Shown one piece after another: positions 36,934-56,614 of a stretch of DNA of 64,000 nucleotides. Under the pieces are notes generated by a model that did not search any database, was not told the DNA's origin, and was given only the letters and a program-made list of their open reading frames with translations. Position 1 is the first letter of the stretch; each line of letters starts with the position of its first letter. Location of the stretch: assembly GCF_016865485.1 (NCBI RefSeq), contig NZ_AP024452.1, positions 248,001 through 312,000 of the forward strand, written 5' to 3'. The position numbers were made by a program, and so were the translations under genes. This DNA is from Luteitalea sp. TBR-22. GTDB taxonomy: Bacteria > Acidobacteriota > Vicinamibacteria > Vicinamibacterales > Vicinamibacteraceae.

Positions 36934-36958
36934 GGCGGCGTGGGACACGCCGCCCTAC
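36934..36958 (-). repeat. REP palindrome, intact, paired with the split one
   Basis: On the minus strand: GTAG, arm GGCGGCGTG, loop TCC, arm CACGCCGCC, all pairs perfect. With the split REP it makes an inverted REP pair (GTAG ends outward), the layout of a REPIN or BIME. Confidence 0.85.
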
Positions 36959-49274: not shown

Positions 49275-49423
49275 CCGGCTCTTCCCGCCACCCGACACCC
49301 GACGCCGGACCGGGAAGGTCGGGCCATCACCGGACGTCGCCGTCGGACTTGACCGACGGTCACGCGGACATCAGGGGAGGCTGTGCCCGTCCTCCCGCCG
49401 CGTTGCGCGTGCCCCGGCGCCCT

Positions 49424-49500
49424 GAGCCCGGAGCCCGGTGCCCGGAGCCCGGTGCCCGGAGCCCGGTGCCCGGAACCCGGTGCCCGGTGCCCGGTGCCCG
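49424..49500. repeat. GAGCCCG/GTGCCCG heptad array
   Basis: Exactly eleven seven-base units, mostly alternating GAGCCCG and GTGCCCG, with one GAACCCG. The array ends one base before the stop codon of the next minus-strand gene. The same GTGCCCG unit and the edge GGTGCCCGATC recur at 61998-62048. Confidence 0.97.
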
Positions 49501-49501
49501 A

Positions 49502-50005
49502 TCACCTCTTGTCGTAATGCGTCTGGCTGGCGGCCTTGGAGCCGTCGGGCATGGTACGCACCGACTTCACGGTCAGGCTCTTTCGGTCGGCGGCCAGCTC
49601 GATGATCGACTGCAGCACCACCACGTCGCCGACCTTGTAGGTGAACAGGCCGCTCGCGCCGCCGAGGCTGTCGCCGAGCGCCGGCTCGATCATCGCCTCC
49701 ACCGTGTCGGGCGCGGGTTGCGCGCCGGTCACCGGCACCGGCTTGCCGTCGCCCTTCGTGGTGAAGCCCCACTTCGAGCTCGTGCCGTCCATGGCCACGG
49801 TCACGCTGGAGAAGGTCAGCCCGTCGGCCTCCCTGGTCACCTCCATGCGTCGCTCCTTCCAGTTGATGGTCATCGGCGTGGACTTGGCCGGGTTCATCAC
49901 CCAGGTGCCGACCATCGGGCCGGGCGCAGGCGCCTGTGCAAATGAGGCGAGCGATGACAGGACGACGAGAGCGGCAACAGCGACGACGCGAACGAACCGA
50001 GACAA
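49502..50005 (-). CDS. Exported lipocalin-like protein of unknown function
   Basis: A 167-residue secreted protein. Signal peptide MSRFVRVVAVAALVVLSSLA to about residue 25. GTWVMNPAKSTPM is the opening typical of small secreted Acidobacteria proteins with a lipocalin-type barrel, followed by alternating strands (MTINWKERRMEVTRE, VEAMIEPALGD, VVLQSIIELAADRKSLTV). The start is TTG at 50005, supported by GGAGG at 50011-50015. The function is unknown. The gap downstream is a heptad array; the upstream gap holds several repeats. Confidence 0.75.
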   Translation of the reverse strand: MSRFVRVVAVAALVVLSSLASFAQAPAPGPMVGTWVMNPAKSTPMTINWKERRMEVTREADGLTFSSVTVAMDGTSSKWGFTTKGDGKPVPVTGAQPAPDTVEAMIEPALGDSLGGASGLFTYKVGDVVVLQSIIELAADRKSLTVKSVRTMPDGSKAASQTHYDKR

Positions 50006-50027
50006 GAGGACCTCCGAGGAACGGCAA

Positions 50028-50052
50028 CAGGCTGCCGCCTACAGGCTACCTG
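50028..50052 (+). repeat. 25-base dispersed repeat, copy 1
   Basis: CAGGCTG, CCGCCTACAGGCT, ACCTG, followed by ATGG. Same framework as copies at 50173, 63905 and 49250. Confidence 0.8.
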
Positions 50053-50062
50053 ATGGGTGGCT

Positions 50063-50088
50063 GTGCGTCGGCCAAGGCCGACGCCTAC
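50063..50088 (-). repeat. REP palindrome with GTAG foot
   Basis: On the minus strand: GTAG, arm GCGTCGGCC, loop TT, arm GGCCGACGC; all nine pairs intact. It faces the next REP with the GTAG feet inward, 13 bases apart. Confidence 0.8.
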
Positions 50089-50101
50089 ACCTGGAACAGT
50101 C

Positions 50102-50125
50102 GTAGCCGTCGCCCTTGGGCGACGG
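50102..50125 (+). repeat. REP palindrome with GTAG foot
   Basis: GTAG, arm CCGTCGCCC, loop TT, arm GGGCGACGG; nine perfect pairs. Compared with the neighbour at 50063, pairs 1 and 7 are changed on both sides of the stem. Confidence 0.8.
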
Positions 50126-50156: not shown

Positions 50157-50172
50157 GGCGAAGGCAGCCTGC

Positions 50173-50197
50173 AGGCTGTAGCCCGCAGGCGACCTGA
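50173..50197 (+). repeat. 25-base dispersed repeat, copy 2
   Basis: CAGGCTG, TAGCCCGCAGGCG, ACCTG, followed by ATGG, as in copy 1. The 13 bases AGGCTGTAGCCCG recur on the minus strand just upstream of exonuclease III. Confidence 0.8.
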
Positions 50198-50211
50198 TGG
50201 TGTGCCTCGCC

Positions 50212-51858
50212 CTACCCCAGCGCCACCGTGAGCCGCGTCACCGATGCCGGCGGCAGGCGGTGCGTGAAGCTGGCACCCGGGCCCACCGGCACGGCGCTCT
50301 CGGCCGACGGTGCGACCACGGCAGGTCGATCGAACGTGTTGTGCGCGTGGATCTCGCCCGCAGCGATCGTGACGGCCCGGGCAGAGGCCGCGCGTCCGCC
50401 GCGCAGGGTGATCGTGGCGTCGGTGGCGTCGGTCGCGTGCGGGTTCACCAGGGTCAGCGTGACCGTGCGGTCCCGCACCGAGGCCGATCCGGCCAGTCCG
50501 GCCACCGATCCGCGGTCGTTCACGCGGTCGTAGCCGATGCGCGGCGCGCCGAGCTGCGTGCGCACGGCCTCGCCGCCCGCATGTGGCGCGTAGAGCGCGA
50601 ACACGTGATAGGTCGGCGTGAGCAGGAACCGCTCGCCGTCGGTGAGGAACAGCGACTGCAGGCAGTTCACCAACTGGGCGATGTTGGCCATCGCGACCTT
50701 GTCGGCATGACGATGGAACGTGTCGAGCGTGAGCGCCGCGACCAGGGCGTCGCGGATCGTCGACTGCTGGCCGAGGTGGTGCGACGGATGGATCTCGGTG
50801 CCCGGCTTGTGCCACGTGCCCCACTCGTCGACGACGATCTTCACGCGATGCCGACGGTCGATCTCGCCCATCACGGCCCAGTGGCCGGTGATCAGCGTCT
50901 CGATGAACGCGGCCTGCGCGAGGATCTCGTACCACTCGTCGGTGGTGTAGACGAGCGCGTCGCCCTTGCCGGCATTCCAGTCGGTGGTGGCGCCCCGGCT
51001 GGCATTCCACGTGTAGTGGTGCAGCGCCCAGCCCCAGATCGAGTTGAGCGCGCCCTCGCCCTTCGCCGTGAGGGTCGTGAAGAACCGACGTGTCCACGAC
51101 AGGTCGTTGCCGTTCGGGCCCGAGCCGATGAACGACAGCGGCTCGCCGTACGTCGGCAGCCAGGCCGTGAACTTGCGGTACTCGACGGCGTACTCGTCGG
51201 CCGTGAGGTTGCCGCCGCAGCCCCACGACTCGTTGCCGACCCCCCAGAACCGCACGCGCAGCGGTTCGGCGCTGCCGCCCTTCGCGCGCATCTCGGCAAG
51301 CGTCGTCGACCCGGCCGGCGAGTTGGCGTACTCGACCCACTGGTAGAAGTCGCGGGCGGGGAGGCTGCGCAGGTTGGCCGCCAGGTACGGCTCGCCGCCG
51401 CACAGGCGCACGAACCGGACGAACTCGTTGGTGCCGAAGTGGTTGGGGTCGTACTTCCACGGTCCGTCGGGCCGTGCCGCCATCTCGGGCGTCCAGAAGT
51501 TCGTGCGGCGGGGCCGTGCCTCGCGTGGGCCGATGCCGTCGCGCCAGTCGTAGCTGTCGGCGAAGCAGCCGCCAGGCCACCGGATCACGCCCTTCGGCAA
51601 GTGGCGCATGTGGTCGACGATGGCCTGCCGGATGCCGCCGGTGTTGGGGATGCGCGAGCCCTCGCCGACCCAGATGCCGTCGTACACGACACCGCCGAGG
51701 TGTTCGACGAAGTGTCCGTAGACGTTGGGATCGATGCGCGCGATCGGCTCGTCGAGGAGCACGTCGACGCGGGCATCGGCCGCCGAGGTCGCCCGGGGGG
51801 CCAGGGTCATCGCCGCCCCCGCCAGCATGGTGGTGCGCAGGAAGTCACGTCGGTCCAC
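50212..51858 (-). CDS. Alpha-L-arabinofuranosidase, glycoside hydrolase family 51, Tat-exported
   Basis: Removes terminal arabinofuranose from arabinan or arabinoxylan. 548 residues. A Tat signal (RRDFLRTTMLAGAAM) is followed by YGHFVEHLGGVVYDGIW, VIRWPGGCFADSYDWRDGIGP, the acid/base Glu210 in WGVGNESWG and the nucleophile Glu345 in VVDEWGTW. A C-terminal beta-sandwich is present. The start is GTG at 51858, supported by AGGAG seven bases upstream. Most GH51 enzymes are cytosolic, so export is notable. Divergent from the DUF2157 gene by 64 bp. Confidence 0.93.
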   Translation of the reverse strand: MDRRDFLRTTMLAGAAMTLAPRATSAADARVDVLLDEPIARIDPNVYGHFVEHLGGVVYDGIWVGEGSRIPNTGGIRQAIVDHMRHLPKGVIRWPGGCFADSYDWRDGIGPREARPRRTNFWTPEMAARPDGPWKYDPNHFGTNEFVRFVRLCGGEPYLAANLRSLPARDFYQWVEYANSPAGSTTLAEMRAKGGSAEPLRVRFWGVGNESWGCGGNLTADEYAVEYRKFTAWLPTYGEPLSFIGSGPNGNDLSWTRRFFTTLTAKGEGALNSIWGWALHHYTWNASRGATTDWNAGKGDALVYTTDEWYEILAQAAFIETLITGHWAVMGEIDRRHRVKIVVDEWGTWHKPGTEIHPSHHLGQQSTIRDALVAALTLDTFHRHADKVAMANIAQLVNCLQSLFLTDGERFLLTPTYHVFALYAPHAGGEAVRTQLGAPRIGYDRVNDRGSVAGLAGSASVRDRTVTLTLVNPHATDATDATITLRGGRAASARAVTIAAGEIHAHNTFDRPAVVAPSAESAVPVGPGASFTHRLPPASVTRLTVALG

Positions 51859-51922
51859 GATCCCACTCCTCTTGTCGCAGGAAGCGCGCGTCGGCGCCAC
51901 TCTATACTGAAGCCACTCATCC

Positions 51923-52927
51923 GTGACCTCGTCCGTTCCTGACCCGCTGGGCCGTGCCGCGACGGTCGCGCGCCTCGAGCGCGTGATCGACGCCATCCCC
52001 GTCCCCGACCCGCACCGCGGTCCGCTCATCGCCCTTGCGACCCGCACCCCCGACCTCGACGAGTGGCGCCGGTTCCTCGCCTCGGCGCTCCTGCTGCTCG
52101 GCGCCGGCCTGGCGCTGTCGGGCGTGGTGTCCTTCTTCGCCTTCAACTGGGCCGCCCTCGGCAGGTTCGCGAAGATGGGCCTGATTGCGGCGGCGACCAC
52201 GGCGGCCGCCGGCGGCGCGCTGCGCCGGCCTGAGACGTTGCTGTCGCGCGTCCTGCTGTTGGCGGCCTCGGTGCTCACCGGCGCGCTGCTCGCCGTCTAC
52301 GGCCAGACCTACCAGACGGGCGCCGACCCGTGGGGCCTGTTCGGCGTCTGGGCGCTGCTGATCCTGCCGTGGACCGTCGCGGCGGCGTTCACGCCACTCT
52401 GGTTGCTGTGGCTCGCGCTCGTCGATCTCGCGTACGCGCTGTACGTCTCGCAGGTGCTCGCGTCGCCGACGTGGGCGCTGTCGCTGCTGCTCGGCCTGCT
52501 GGCGATGCACGTCCTCGCGCTGATGGCCTGGGAACTGCAGCACCTGCAGGCGCGGCCCTGGCTCACCGACACGTGGGCGCCCCGCATGGTGGCGGCCGCC
52601 ACCGTGCTGCCGCTGCTCGTCCCGGCCTTCGTCCGGGTCCTGCACCCGGGCGATGCCGACACGCTCGGCGCCGCGGCGCTCGGCGCGGTCAGCTTCCTCG
52701 TGGTCGCGTTCGGCGTGTACCACACCGCGATCCGCCGTGACACCTTCATGCTGACGCTCGCCGCCGGCGCCGTCATGACCATCGTGACCACTGCGGTGTC
52801 GCGTCTGCTGATGGAGACGCTCGACCTGGGGCTGCTCGGGCTGATGCTGATCACGGCCTTCATCGTCGGCGAGGTGACCCTGGTGGTGTCCTGGTTGCGG
52901 CGGCAGTCGCGGGGAGAGGCGGCATGA
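51923..52927 (+). CDS. DUF2157 membrane protein
   Basis: A 334-residue inner-membrane protein with about eight to ten transmembrane helices. The diagnostic DUF2157 stretch is SFFAFNWAALGRFAKMGLI followed by VYGQTYQTGADPW. First of three overlapping genes; its TGA overlaps the ATG of the DUF4401 gene (ATGA at 52924). The function of the family is unknown. The same order of DUF2157, DUF4401 and GDYXXLXY occurs in other bacteria, so the three products probably form one complex. Confidence 0.9.
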   Translation: MTSSVPDPLGRAATVARLERVIDAIPVPDPHRGPLIALATRTPDLDEWRRFLASALLLLGAGLALSGVVSFFAFNWAALGRFAKMGLIAAATTAAAGGALRRPETLLSRVLLLAASVLTGALLAVYGQTYQTGADPWGLFGVWALLILPWTVAAAFTPLWLLWLALVDLAYALYVSQVLASPTWALSLLLGLLAMHVLALMAWELQHLQARPWLTDTWAPRMVAAATVLPLLVPAFVRVLHPGDADTLGAAALGAVSFLVVAFGVYHTAIRRDTFMLTLAAGAVMTIVTTAVSRLLMETLDLGLLGLMLITAFIVGEVTLVVSWLRRQSRGEAA

Positions 52928-54576: not shown

Positions 54577-56400
54577 ATGACGCCCGACGACTACCTCGAC
54601 CACCTGCAGTCCGACCTGGCCGACGTCGATCACGAACCCGCGGCCGCATCTGGCCTCGCACCCGTCGATCGGCGCGCGTTCACCTTCTACTCGCTCGTCG
54701 CGGCGGCCGCCGGTGCGTTCGCCGCGCCGGAGGCCCTGCGCGCGCAGCCGCCATCCCCCGCGCCTGGTGCGCCCGCCCCGCAGGGGCCCGCGCCCGCCCA
54801 GCCCGCCGCACCGGAGCCGCTCCCGCTCGGTAACGGCGAACCGCCGGCGCTGCAGTTCCAGCCCTGGCCGGCCGGCACCGGCGCCCTGCTCGACAGCCTG
54901 ATTCGCGAGCGCGGCGCCGCCGCGTTCACCCGGACGCCTGTCGAGCCGCTGGCGTGGGACGGCGCGGTCCCGACATCAGAGGAAGACCTCGCGTTCCTGC
55001 CGGCGCACCGGCTCTCGGCGTTGCTGCGGGCCCGCCGCGTCACCTCGACCCAGCTCACCGAGTTGTTCCTCGCGCGCCTGGCGCGCCTCAACCCGGTCCT
55101 CAACTGTGTCGTCATCCTGCTGGGCCAGCAGGCGCTGGCCGAGGCGGCGCGCGCCGATCGCGAGATCGCCGCGGGTCGCCATCGTGGCCCGCTCCACGGC
55201 GTGCCCTACGGCCTGAAGGATCTCTTCTCGACCAGGGGGCTCACGACGACGTGGGGGGCGCCCGACTTCAAGGATCGCCGGATCGAGGAGGACGCCGAGA
55301 TCGTCGTGCGGTTGCGCGAGGCCGGCGCGGTTCTGGTGGCCAAGCTCTCGACGGGCCTCTTCGCGCAGAACGATCAGTGGTTCGGCGGACGCACCAACAA
55401 CCCGTGGAACCTGTCGCAGGGGTCGAGCGGGTCGTCGGCCGGCCCGGCGTCGGCGGTCGCGGCCGGCTGCGTGCCGTTCGCCATCGGCACCGAGACGCAG
55501 GGCTCGATCGTGTCGCCGGCGATCCGGTGCGGCATCACGGCGCTGCGGCCGACGTTCGGGCGCGTGAGCCGGCACGGCGGCATGGTGCTGGCCTGGTCGC
55601 AGGATCGGGTCGGCCCGATGTGCCGCACGGCCGAGGACTGCGCGATGGTCTTCAGCGTGATCCACGGCGTCGACGAGAAGGACCCGTCGACGATCACCAC
55701 GCCGTTCCAGTACGACCGGGGCATCGACGTGTCTCGCCTGAGCGTCGGCGTCGATCCCGAGGCGCCGCCGGCCCTGGTGGAGCGCCTGCGTGCGATGGGC
55801 GTGGTGCCGAAGCCGATTGGCCCGCGGCCCACGGTACCCGGCATCGGGCAGGGCAGCCTCAACGTCGAGTACGCCGCCGCGTTCGAGGCCTACGTGGTGC
55901 GCAAGGCGAAGGAGATCGGCCTCGACCTGGCGAACCTGCCGCCGACACCGGCCCCGACGCCGCCGCCGACGCCCGAGAACCCGATGGCGCCGGCCGACTG
56001 GAACCCGCGCTTCGTGAACGGCCGACTCGTGAAGGGCTTCGACTTCCTGCAACTGCAGCGCCGCCGCCACGTGCTCGTGCAGCGCTGGGGCGAGTTCATG
56101 AAGGACCTGGACCTGTTCGTCGGCGCACCCGGGGCCGACGTCGCGGCCAACGCGCAAACGGGCCATCCGTGCGTGGTGCTGCCGTACGCGTTCGACGTGC
56201 CGCCGTCACGCCCGCCGGGCGGGCGAGGTGCCGCTGCCGCGCCGGCGCCTGCCGCTCCTTCCACGCCTGCGCCGCCGCTGCAGCCGCAGCCGATCTGCGG
56301 CACCTTCGTCGGTCGGCTGTATGCCGACGACCTGCTGCTGTCGCTGGCGCACCGGTTCCAGGAAGGCACGGACTACCACACGCGCAGACCGCGCCTGTAA
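54577..56400 (+). CDS. Amidase signature family enzyme, Tat-exported
   Basis: A 607-residue amidase. The N-terminus has twin Arg (DRRAFTFYSLVAAAAG, about 31-46) and a Pro/Ala-rich linker (55-90). The Ser-Ser-Lys triad is visible: Lys214 in GVPYGLKDLF, the cis-Ser in QGSSGSSAG (about 283-284) and nucleophile Ser310 in TETQGSIVSPA. A Pro-rich insertion near 445-465 and an Ala/Pro-rich one near 555-575 are unusual. AGGA lies before the ATG. It follows the three-gene module by 64 bp and may be co-transcribed. Substrate unknown. Confidence 0.9.
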   Translation: MTPDDYLDHLQSDLADVDHEPAAASGLAPVDRRAFTFYSLVAAAAGAFAAPEALRAQPPSPAPGAPAPQGPAPAQPAAPEPLPLGNGEPPALQFQPWPAGTGALLDSLIRERGAAAFTRTPVEPLAWDGAVPTSEEDLAFLPAHRLSALLRARRVTSTQLTELFLARLARLNPVLNCVVILLGQQALAEAARADREIAAGRHRGPLHGVPYGLKDLFSTRGLTTTWGAPDFKDRRIEEDAEIVVRLREAGAVLVAKLSTGLFAQNDQWFGGRTNNPWNLSQGSSGSSAGPASAVAAGCVPFAIGTETQGSIVSPAIRCGITALRPTFGRVSRHGGMVLAWSQDRVGPMCRTAEDCAMVFSVIHGVDEKDPSTITTPFQYDRGIDVSRLSVGVDPEAPPALVERLRAMGVVPKPIGPRPTVPGIGQGSLNVEYAAAFEAYVVRKAKEIGLDLANLPPTPAPTPPPTPENPMAPADWNPRFVNGRLVKGFDFLQLQRRRHVLVQRWGEFMKDLDLFVGAPGADVAANAQTGHPCVVLPYAFDVPPSRPPGGRGAAAAPAPAAPSTPAPPLQPQPICGTFVGRLYADDLLLSLAHRFQEGTDYHTRRPRL

Positions 56401-56406
56401 TTCAGC

Positions 56407-56429
56407 GATGCCGCGATGCCGGAATGTCG
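56407..56429 (+). repeat. 23-base dispersed repeat, direct copy
   Basis: Identical to 36973-36995; begins GATGCCGCGATGCCGG and ends AATGTCG. It lies 6 bp after the amidase stop. An inverted copy is at 56577. Confidence 0.85.
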
Positions 56430-56434
56430 AAGGT

Positions 56435-56448
56435 CGGGGCTAGCCCCG
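56435..56448. repeat. Perfect 14-bp palindrome
   Basis: CGGGGCTAGCCCCG, preceded by GGT. It may be a REP relative with a GTCG foot, but the match to the other REPs is poor. Confidence 0.5.
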
Positions 56449-56490: not shown

Positions 56491-56516
56491 GTAGGCGTCG
56501 ACCTTCAGGTCGACGC
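56491..56516 (+). repeat. REP palindrome with GTAG foot
   Basis: GTAG, arm GCGTCGACC, loop TTCA, arm GGTCGACGC; nine perfect pairs. It shares the framework of the REPs at 50063 and 50102 with the seventh pair changed to A-T. Confidence 0.8.
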
Positions 56517-56576: not shown

Positions 56577-56599
56577 CGACATTCCGGCATCGCGGCATT
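56577..56599 (-). repeat. 23-base dispersed repeat, inverted copy
   Basis: Reverse complement of 56407-56429 at 22 of 23 positions, followed by another CATTCCGG octamer unit. The pair brackets the REP at 56491. Confidence 0.85.
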
Positions 56600-56614
56600 C
56601 CGGCATTACAGGAA

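Follow-up and report, generated by a model that had tools for sequence, protein, structure and literature searches.

GTAG-footed hairpin repeats of Luteitalea sp. TBR-22 and the RAYT transposase that probably moves them

Hairpins in the window and their neighbourhood

Luteitalea sp. TBR-22 is a duckweed isolate of the Acidobacteriota (class Vicinamibacteria) with a chromosome of 6,468,984 bases (PMC8852301). The stretch analysed here, called the window, comprises 64,000 nucleotides (bases 248001-312000 of the single contig), and its main feature is a pair of short hairpins between two minus-strand genes (Table 1). An alpha-L-arabinofuranosidase gene (ORF 50212-52278) ends before the pair, which is followed by the start of a gene for a small protein that has no match in Pfam (longest ORF 49371-50027). 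A sequence-only reading had described hairpins with GTAG feet, perfect 9-bp arms and TT loops facing each other across 13 bases, and both direct reading and a search found them exactly so. It had also pointed to a third copy at 56491 with partner-matched changes at stem positions 1 and 7, and the three stems bear this out: position 1 is G, C and G, position 7 is G, C and A, and the partner base switches each time. The third copy sits between converging genes for an amidase and an endonuclease/exonuclease/phosphatase-family protein, and its 9-bp stem with the TTCA closure may alternatively be counted as 10-bp arms with a 2-base loop. These three elements are called R1 below.

GTAG heads such hairpins more often than other tetramers do. 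In the window, 4 of the 227 GTAG tetramers head one, compared with 268 of the 127,994 tetramers of all kinds; the fourth GTAG hairpin belongs to another family, R2, and not to R1. In 400 kb sampled from the genome the figure for GTAG was 33 of 1,654 (20 per 1,000), and 11 of 12 control tetramers gave 0.8-4.0 per 1,000, the twelfth being TAGG, which overlaps GTAGG and gave 34.6.

Table 1. Positions of the R1 and R2 elements, the RAYT genes and the half-hairpins; numbers refer to the window where no other sequence is named
Feature	Position	Strand	Description
R1 REP, left pair member	50065-50088	-	GTAG 50088-50085, stem GCGTCGGCC, loop TT, far end 50065
Spacer of the pair, feet facing inwards	50089-50101	.	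13 bases
R1 REP, right pair member	50102-50125	+	GTAG 50102-50105, stem CCGTCGCCC, loop TT
R1 REP, single	56491-56516	+	TTCA closes the stem GCGTCGACC; flanking genes converge
R2 REP	36934-36958	-	GTAGGG foot, stem GGCGGCGTG, loop TCC; family ringing RAYT-B
RAYT-A	C1:4723327-4723728		NF047646 75.5-76.7 bits, under the 80-bit cut-off; single-copy
RAYT-B	C1:6430924-6431298		NF047646 95-95.9 bits, over the 80-bit cut-off
Tandem half-hairpins (TBR-22)	L162 81-152; L161 80-149; L152 71-156; L143 2721-2790		units of 21-26 bases, upstream of intact R1

Other repeats lie close by. Similar short stretches ending in ACCTGATGG (50031-50057 and 50169-50198) flank the pair and possibly represent a duplicated flank, as judged by eye, and GC-rich direct repeats in tandem, with units like CCCGGTGCCCGGAG, occupy 49393-49502 and have dozens of short matches in congeners. 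A third repeat flanks the 56491 element with one copy to the left and one to the right, inverted relative to each other (56396-56436 and 56577-56609), and its right copy has 25 short congener matches among the matches listed (14 in G001, 9 in G004 and 2 in G002).

The two R1 places of the window were compared with those congeners in which both flanking genes could be matched. The counterpart of the pair's intergenic space in congener G001 holds no GTAG hairpin, and that of the 56491 space holds three, none of which is the window's exact element; in G004, the counterpart of the 56491 space holds no GTAG hairpin. Occupancy at these two places turns over between species. No insertion joint or transposition event was seen in the species comparisons, joints being unreadable at such distance.

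The R1 family and the RAYT genes

A search of the TBR-22 genome with the pattern GTAG-N-CGTCG-NNC-(2 to 6)-GNN-CGACG, in which pairing at the N positions was not required, gave 207 matches, compared with 1 for the reversed pattern. Four congeners gave 298 (G001, probably L. pratensis), 66, 53 (G003) and 3 (G002) matches, so that R1 is abundant in three of the four. The other 55 of the 60 genomes searched had 0-3, as had the 393 genomes besides TBR-22, G001 and G004 in a phylum sample of 396. As far as searched, R1 is a genus-level family of Luteitalea. Its copies lie mostly outside genes: with gene calls from a home-made codon-usage caller, which take up 77% of the 1.264 Mb sampled (the window plus 60 stretches), only 6 of 49 copies were inside called genes and 43 were extragenic, compared with 76% of random points inside genes and with 78 of 99 control places that carry the 5' letters without the hairpin. 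No mismatch of any kind was found in 36 of the best 49-50 copies.

R1 thus shows the traits of GTAG-type REPs, namely the foot beside a palindrome, high copy number, extragenic placement and a REPtron-like RAYT locus. Two other assignments were considered and rejected: R1 is not a CGTC-type REP, its unpaired foot being GTAG and its CGTC being paired with GACG, nor is it an E. coli-type (group 2) REP with a conserved mismatch bulge, the window stems being perfectly paired. A replichore strand bias (C-type 38 plus and 18 minus, G-type 20 and 21, for 100 places among the matches listed) was dropped because the GC skew of the sampled stretches showed no clear origin or terminus.

A profile search with NF047646 found two RAYT genes in the TBR-22 genome, RAYT-A and RAYT-B, and both lie outside the window, in which the sequence-only reading had likewise seen no such gene. 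RAYT-A scores below the 80-bit cut-off, as does its counterpart in G004 (67.8 bits), and no family scored better for either protein; this NCBIfam cut-off is an annotation threshold and not a defining property. Both TBR-22 proteins retain the HuH histidines and the Y...NP tyrosine, H77, H79, Y141, N145 and P146 are invariant in all 6 aligned proteins, and Pfam Y1_Tnp was above its cut-off in all 5 proteins scanned. The match to the solved TnpA-REP 4er8 has an E-value of 1.1e-10 for RAYT-B and 0.0085 for RAYT-A.

RAYT-A occupies one syntenic place in TBR-22, G001 and G004, with flanks that are 87-88% identical over 1.4 kb on one side and 74-78% identical on the other, whereas its proteins in TBR-22 and G004 are 49% identical over 152 residues, which marks it as a fast-changing gene. 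R1-type hairpins flank it on both sides in all three genomes; in TBR-22 these are two exact R1 on one side and a variant with the stem CTGCCGACC on the other. Around RAYT-B the same three genomes carry R2-type hairpins, whose stems differ by species yet remain paired. In G001, RAYT-A matches in two frames (G001:C1:5981727-5982132; L106 3662-4204) and the frame looks broken, so the gene may be inactive there, though G001 has the most R1 matches. Two further observations were made in G001: an R1 hairpin overlaps the end of the RAYT-A open frame, and an R2 hairpin array with a regular 56-base step (L107 3442-4248) reaches the RAYT-B gene.

In G002, which has only the 3 R1 matches, 151 bases separate the two RAYT-A flanks and contain neither a RAYT motif nor a GTAG hairpin, and a RAYT was not found anywhere in the genome. 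In G003 a RAYT was not found despite the 53 R1 matches, and contigs end at or near the RAYT-A place: one stops 18 bases from the RAYT-A flank, and another continues 1,097 bases past the flank and stops at a GTAG hairpin of another stem. Beyond TBR-22, a perfect GTAG hairpin was found at 9 of 29 RAYT loci of the order, compared with at most 6 of 29 when other feet were tried (TGGC), and the excess of single hairpins at RAYT loci is therefore modest.

Stem pairing, doublets and possible causes

The sequence-only reading held that compensating changes mean that the fold itself is kept. We examined this in 90 distinct R1 copies picked by the foot, the CGTCG/CGACG block and spacing only, with pairs 1, 7 and 8 left free; this set replaced an earlier one of 66 sequences (36 of them fully paired) that contained chance matches in coding DNA. 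This choice misses copies whose block differs, as it does in the variant beside RAYT-A, so the true size of R1 exceeds the count; constancy of the CGTCG block is partly built into the search pattern. Pairs 1, 7 and 8 were Watson-Crick in 84, 85 and 89 of the 90 copies, whereas shuffles of the 3' letters of the same copies averaged 43.6, 30.0 and 55.1 and reached 60, 46 and 67 at most. All three pairs were intact in 79 copies, spread over 13 stem types, and exactly one was broken in 10. In 79 R1 copies of G001 each of the three pairs was Watson-Crick in 78; pair 7 is near-invariant there (shuffle mean 76.1), and therefore pairs 1 and 8 are the informative ones. In 46 copies of R2, anchored without requiring pairing at pairs 3-9, covariation was seen at pairs 4, 5, 7 and 9, and pairing at pairs 3, 6 and 8 was no higher than in shuffles. 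These counts are of copies and not of independent events, and descent among copies inflates them. The claim thus holds over 90 copies and in a second species as far as pairing goes; compensating changes reveal that pairing is kept and not the force that keeps it.

We consider it likely that the window pair and the copy at 56491 belong to a GTAG-type REP family of Luteitalea that is moved by RAYT-A. Mobilisation by RAYT transposases, which the sequence-only reading had proposed, is supported by the copy number in TBR-22 and in three of four congeners, the RAYT genes and the R1-flanked RAYT-A, and it is from this association that we infer it; both checks named in that reading, for further copies and for a RAYT gene, thus turned out favourably. 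In the proposed mechanism, R1 would be short non-autonomous elements that fold into a hairpin in single-stranded DNA, most plausibly while it is being replicated, and RAYT-A, as an IS200/IS605-like Y1 enzyme, would read the GTAG foot, the pairing of the stem and the short loop rich in T, nick beside the hairpin and join it elsewhere. A paired stem would matter to the enzyme more than the stem sequence, so that its letters would be free to drift as long as the two arms change in step. Single-strand binding, nicking, strand transfer and the role of RAYT-A as the mover are presumed from the behaviour of its family. Researchers have assayed a perfect-palindrome REP of Stenotrophomonas maltophilia and found that changes of stem blocks which keep pairing have mild effects, whereas a mismatch in the stem cuts cleavage down or nearly abolishes it (PMC8266576); this pattern fits R1 stems that are free in sequence but not in pairing. 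Several findings speak against RAYT-A as the mover, namely its score below the cut-off, its weak match to 4er8, the split frame in G001 and the R1 copies of G003, where a RAYT was not found; and the link between RAYT-A and R1 drawn from G002 rests on one genome, which differs from the others beyond RAYT-A.

The main rival for why the stems stay paired is correction by polymerase template switching, in which one arm of a quasi-palindrome is copied onto the other and each change is compensated at once. REPs would remain mobile in that case, but nothing about recognition would follow from the covariation. We regard this as possible without thinking it probable. Quasi-palindrome mutations in E. 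coli have reportedly been studied as a case of template switching. The scarcity of half-way states among the 90 copies is what a one-step process would leave, the tandem half-hairpins described below, which occur on the foot side, resemble replication slips at a hairpin, and stem-fixing template switching has been described (PMC8794818). Nevertheless, the loop and the CGTCG block are fairly constant while the other pairs vary, which a process blind to sequence does not alone predict, even if the constancy of the block is partly a product of the search, and the enzyme assays offer selection a direct cause (PMC8266576).

Two other explanations concern what R1 does and what moves it. The host might keep R1 as RNA elements at gene ends, such as terminators or mRNA stabilisers, with spread being incidental, which we consider improbable. 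R1 is indeed extragenic, and among the 39 extragenic copies with a readable context 13 lie between convergent genes, compared with 546 of 2,700 random intergenic points; but 20 of the 39 lie between co-directional and 6 between divergent genes (1,492 and 662 of the random points), R1 is not above background outside the genus in the genomes searched, and the empty counterparts of the pair in G001 and of the 56491 copy in G004 make a fixed role at these genes unlikely. It is very improbable, in our judgement, that R1 is a real REP family moved by RAYT-B or some other enzyme and that its presence around RAYT-A is a coincidence of insertion. The split RAYT-A frame in G001, where copies are most numerous, and the copies in G003 would be explained in this way, but not why three species keep RAYT-A at a single place, flanked on each side by R1-type hairpins, nor why R2 rather than R1 rings RAYT-B in the same three genomes.

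Doublets carry a further regularity. Among the TBR-22 loci sampled, 19 inverted R1 doublets lie within 60 bases, 13 with feet out and 6 with feet in, the window pair having the rarer feet-in form; 11 of the 19 came from stretches chosen for two close copies and not by stem. None of the 19 had equal whole stems (2.4 expected, P 0.07), which is only suggestive, while the two members agreed at position 1, the base pair at the foot, in 3 doublets (8.5 expected, P 0.005) and at positions 7-8 in none (3.2 expected, P 0.027). In G001, 0 of 9 doublets had equal stems and 0 of 9 an equal position 1, and stems were thus unequal in all 28 doublets examined in the two species. A tally by eye of the ten RAYT loci whose GTAG hairpins point both ways (L076, L083, L085, L089, L103, L104, L106, L107, L108 and L109) found no stem shared between orientations in 8 of the 10, the exceptions being L104 and L106; at L108 the tally was confined to the five hairpins no more than 1 kb from the gene, and four at about 9.5 kb have the opposite linkage and break the rule if pooled. 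Tandem half-hairpins, which consist of GTAG, the 5' arm and the flank without the 3' arm and lie 20-27 bases upstream of an R1 hairpin, were found on the foot side of 11 of 90 copies in TBR-22 and 3 of 79 in G001, and on the far side of 0 of 90 and 0 of 79. The threshold of at least 16 of 21 bases alike was set after the first distribution was seen, and some of the eleven in TBR-22 are weak by eye; our guess is that half-hairpins arise by a replication slip at the hairpin.

We speculated that the stem sequence may be an end label rather than the result of neutral drift, as the two orientations carry different stems in doublets and around most of those RAYT genes of the order that are flanked by hairpins of both orientations, but we find this doubtful. 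If it were true, the enzyme or the replication fork would tell the two ends apart, or would be kept from pairing them, and the half-hairpins on the foot side would be a trace left by that process. A published account ascribes unequal dimers to escape from palindrome cleavage (PMC3733652), which counts against an end label, as does DNA folding, by which roughly half of the 19 doublets are still predicted to form a single long hairpin with mismatches. The same DNA folding prediction leaves unsupported the idea that unequal stems bar a doublet from forming one long hairpin.

Comparison with known repeat systems

R1 with its probable RAYT is an element of a known kind. Like the GTAG-type REPs and REPINs of Stenotrophomonas, Pseudomonas and E. 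coli with group-2/3 RAYTs, R1 has a GTAG foot at a GC-rich palindrome and a loop of 2-4 bases (PMC2817692, PMC3733652). It also shares with them about 200 mostly extragenic copies, inverted doublets, a hairpin-flanked RAYT and complementary stem changes. Such changes were noted in 2010 as "suggesting selection for complementary mutations" (PMC2817692), and alternative complementary stems and unequal dimers were described in 2013 (PMC3733652), so neither compensation in the stem nor inequality within a doublet is new to the literature. For GTAG-type REPs, doublets with equal stems and doublets with unequal ones have both been reported (PMC3733652), whereas those of R1 were unequal in 28 of 28, and this, together with the foot-side tandem half-hairpins, is the less usual trait of R1.

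Other systems resemble R1 in part. The BIMEs of E. coli, built from y and z REPs, likewise combine two REP types with different stems as inverted neighbours, but E. coli REPs carry a required bulge (PMC8266576), whereas R1 is perfect at its three variable pairs in 79 of 90 copies. CGTC-type REPs are also short high-copy palindromes, and R1 contains CGTC too, but they are reported to lack a linked transposase (PMC3733652), and the CGTC of R1 lies inside the paired stem with GTAG as the foot. IS200/IS605 elements with TnpA share with RAYT and R1 the Y1 HuH enzyme and subterminal hairpins on single-stranded DNA; unlike them, RAYT-A is fixed at one place in three species, and it is short hairpins without a gene that are dispersed.

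A survey lists GTAG repeats from Proteobacteria, Cyanobacteria, Chloroflexi and the PVC group; what it names for Acidobacteria are tyrosine transposases, whose terminal repeats are unrelated (PMC3733652). No earlier report on REPs in Luteitalea was found in the open-access literature, among the matches listed. Two RAYT-REP pairs with well-populated families are added here from Acidobacteriota, which is absent from the GTAG list in the accessible part of that survey (PMC3733652). RAYT-A, kept at one place in three Luteitalea genomes and with its place empty in one that has almost no R1, offers a small natural test of the dependence of REPs on the enzyme, and with their many compensated stem types R1 and R2 are well suited to the study of which parts of a REP are read by a RAYT.
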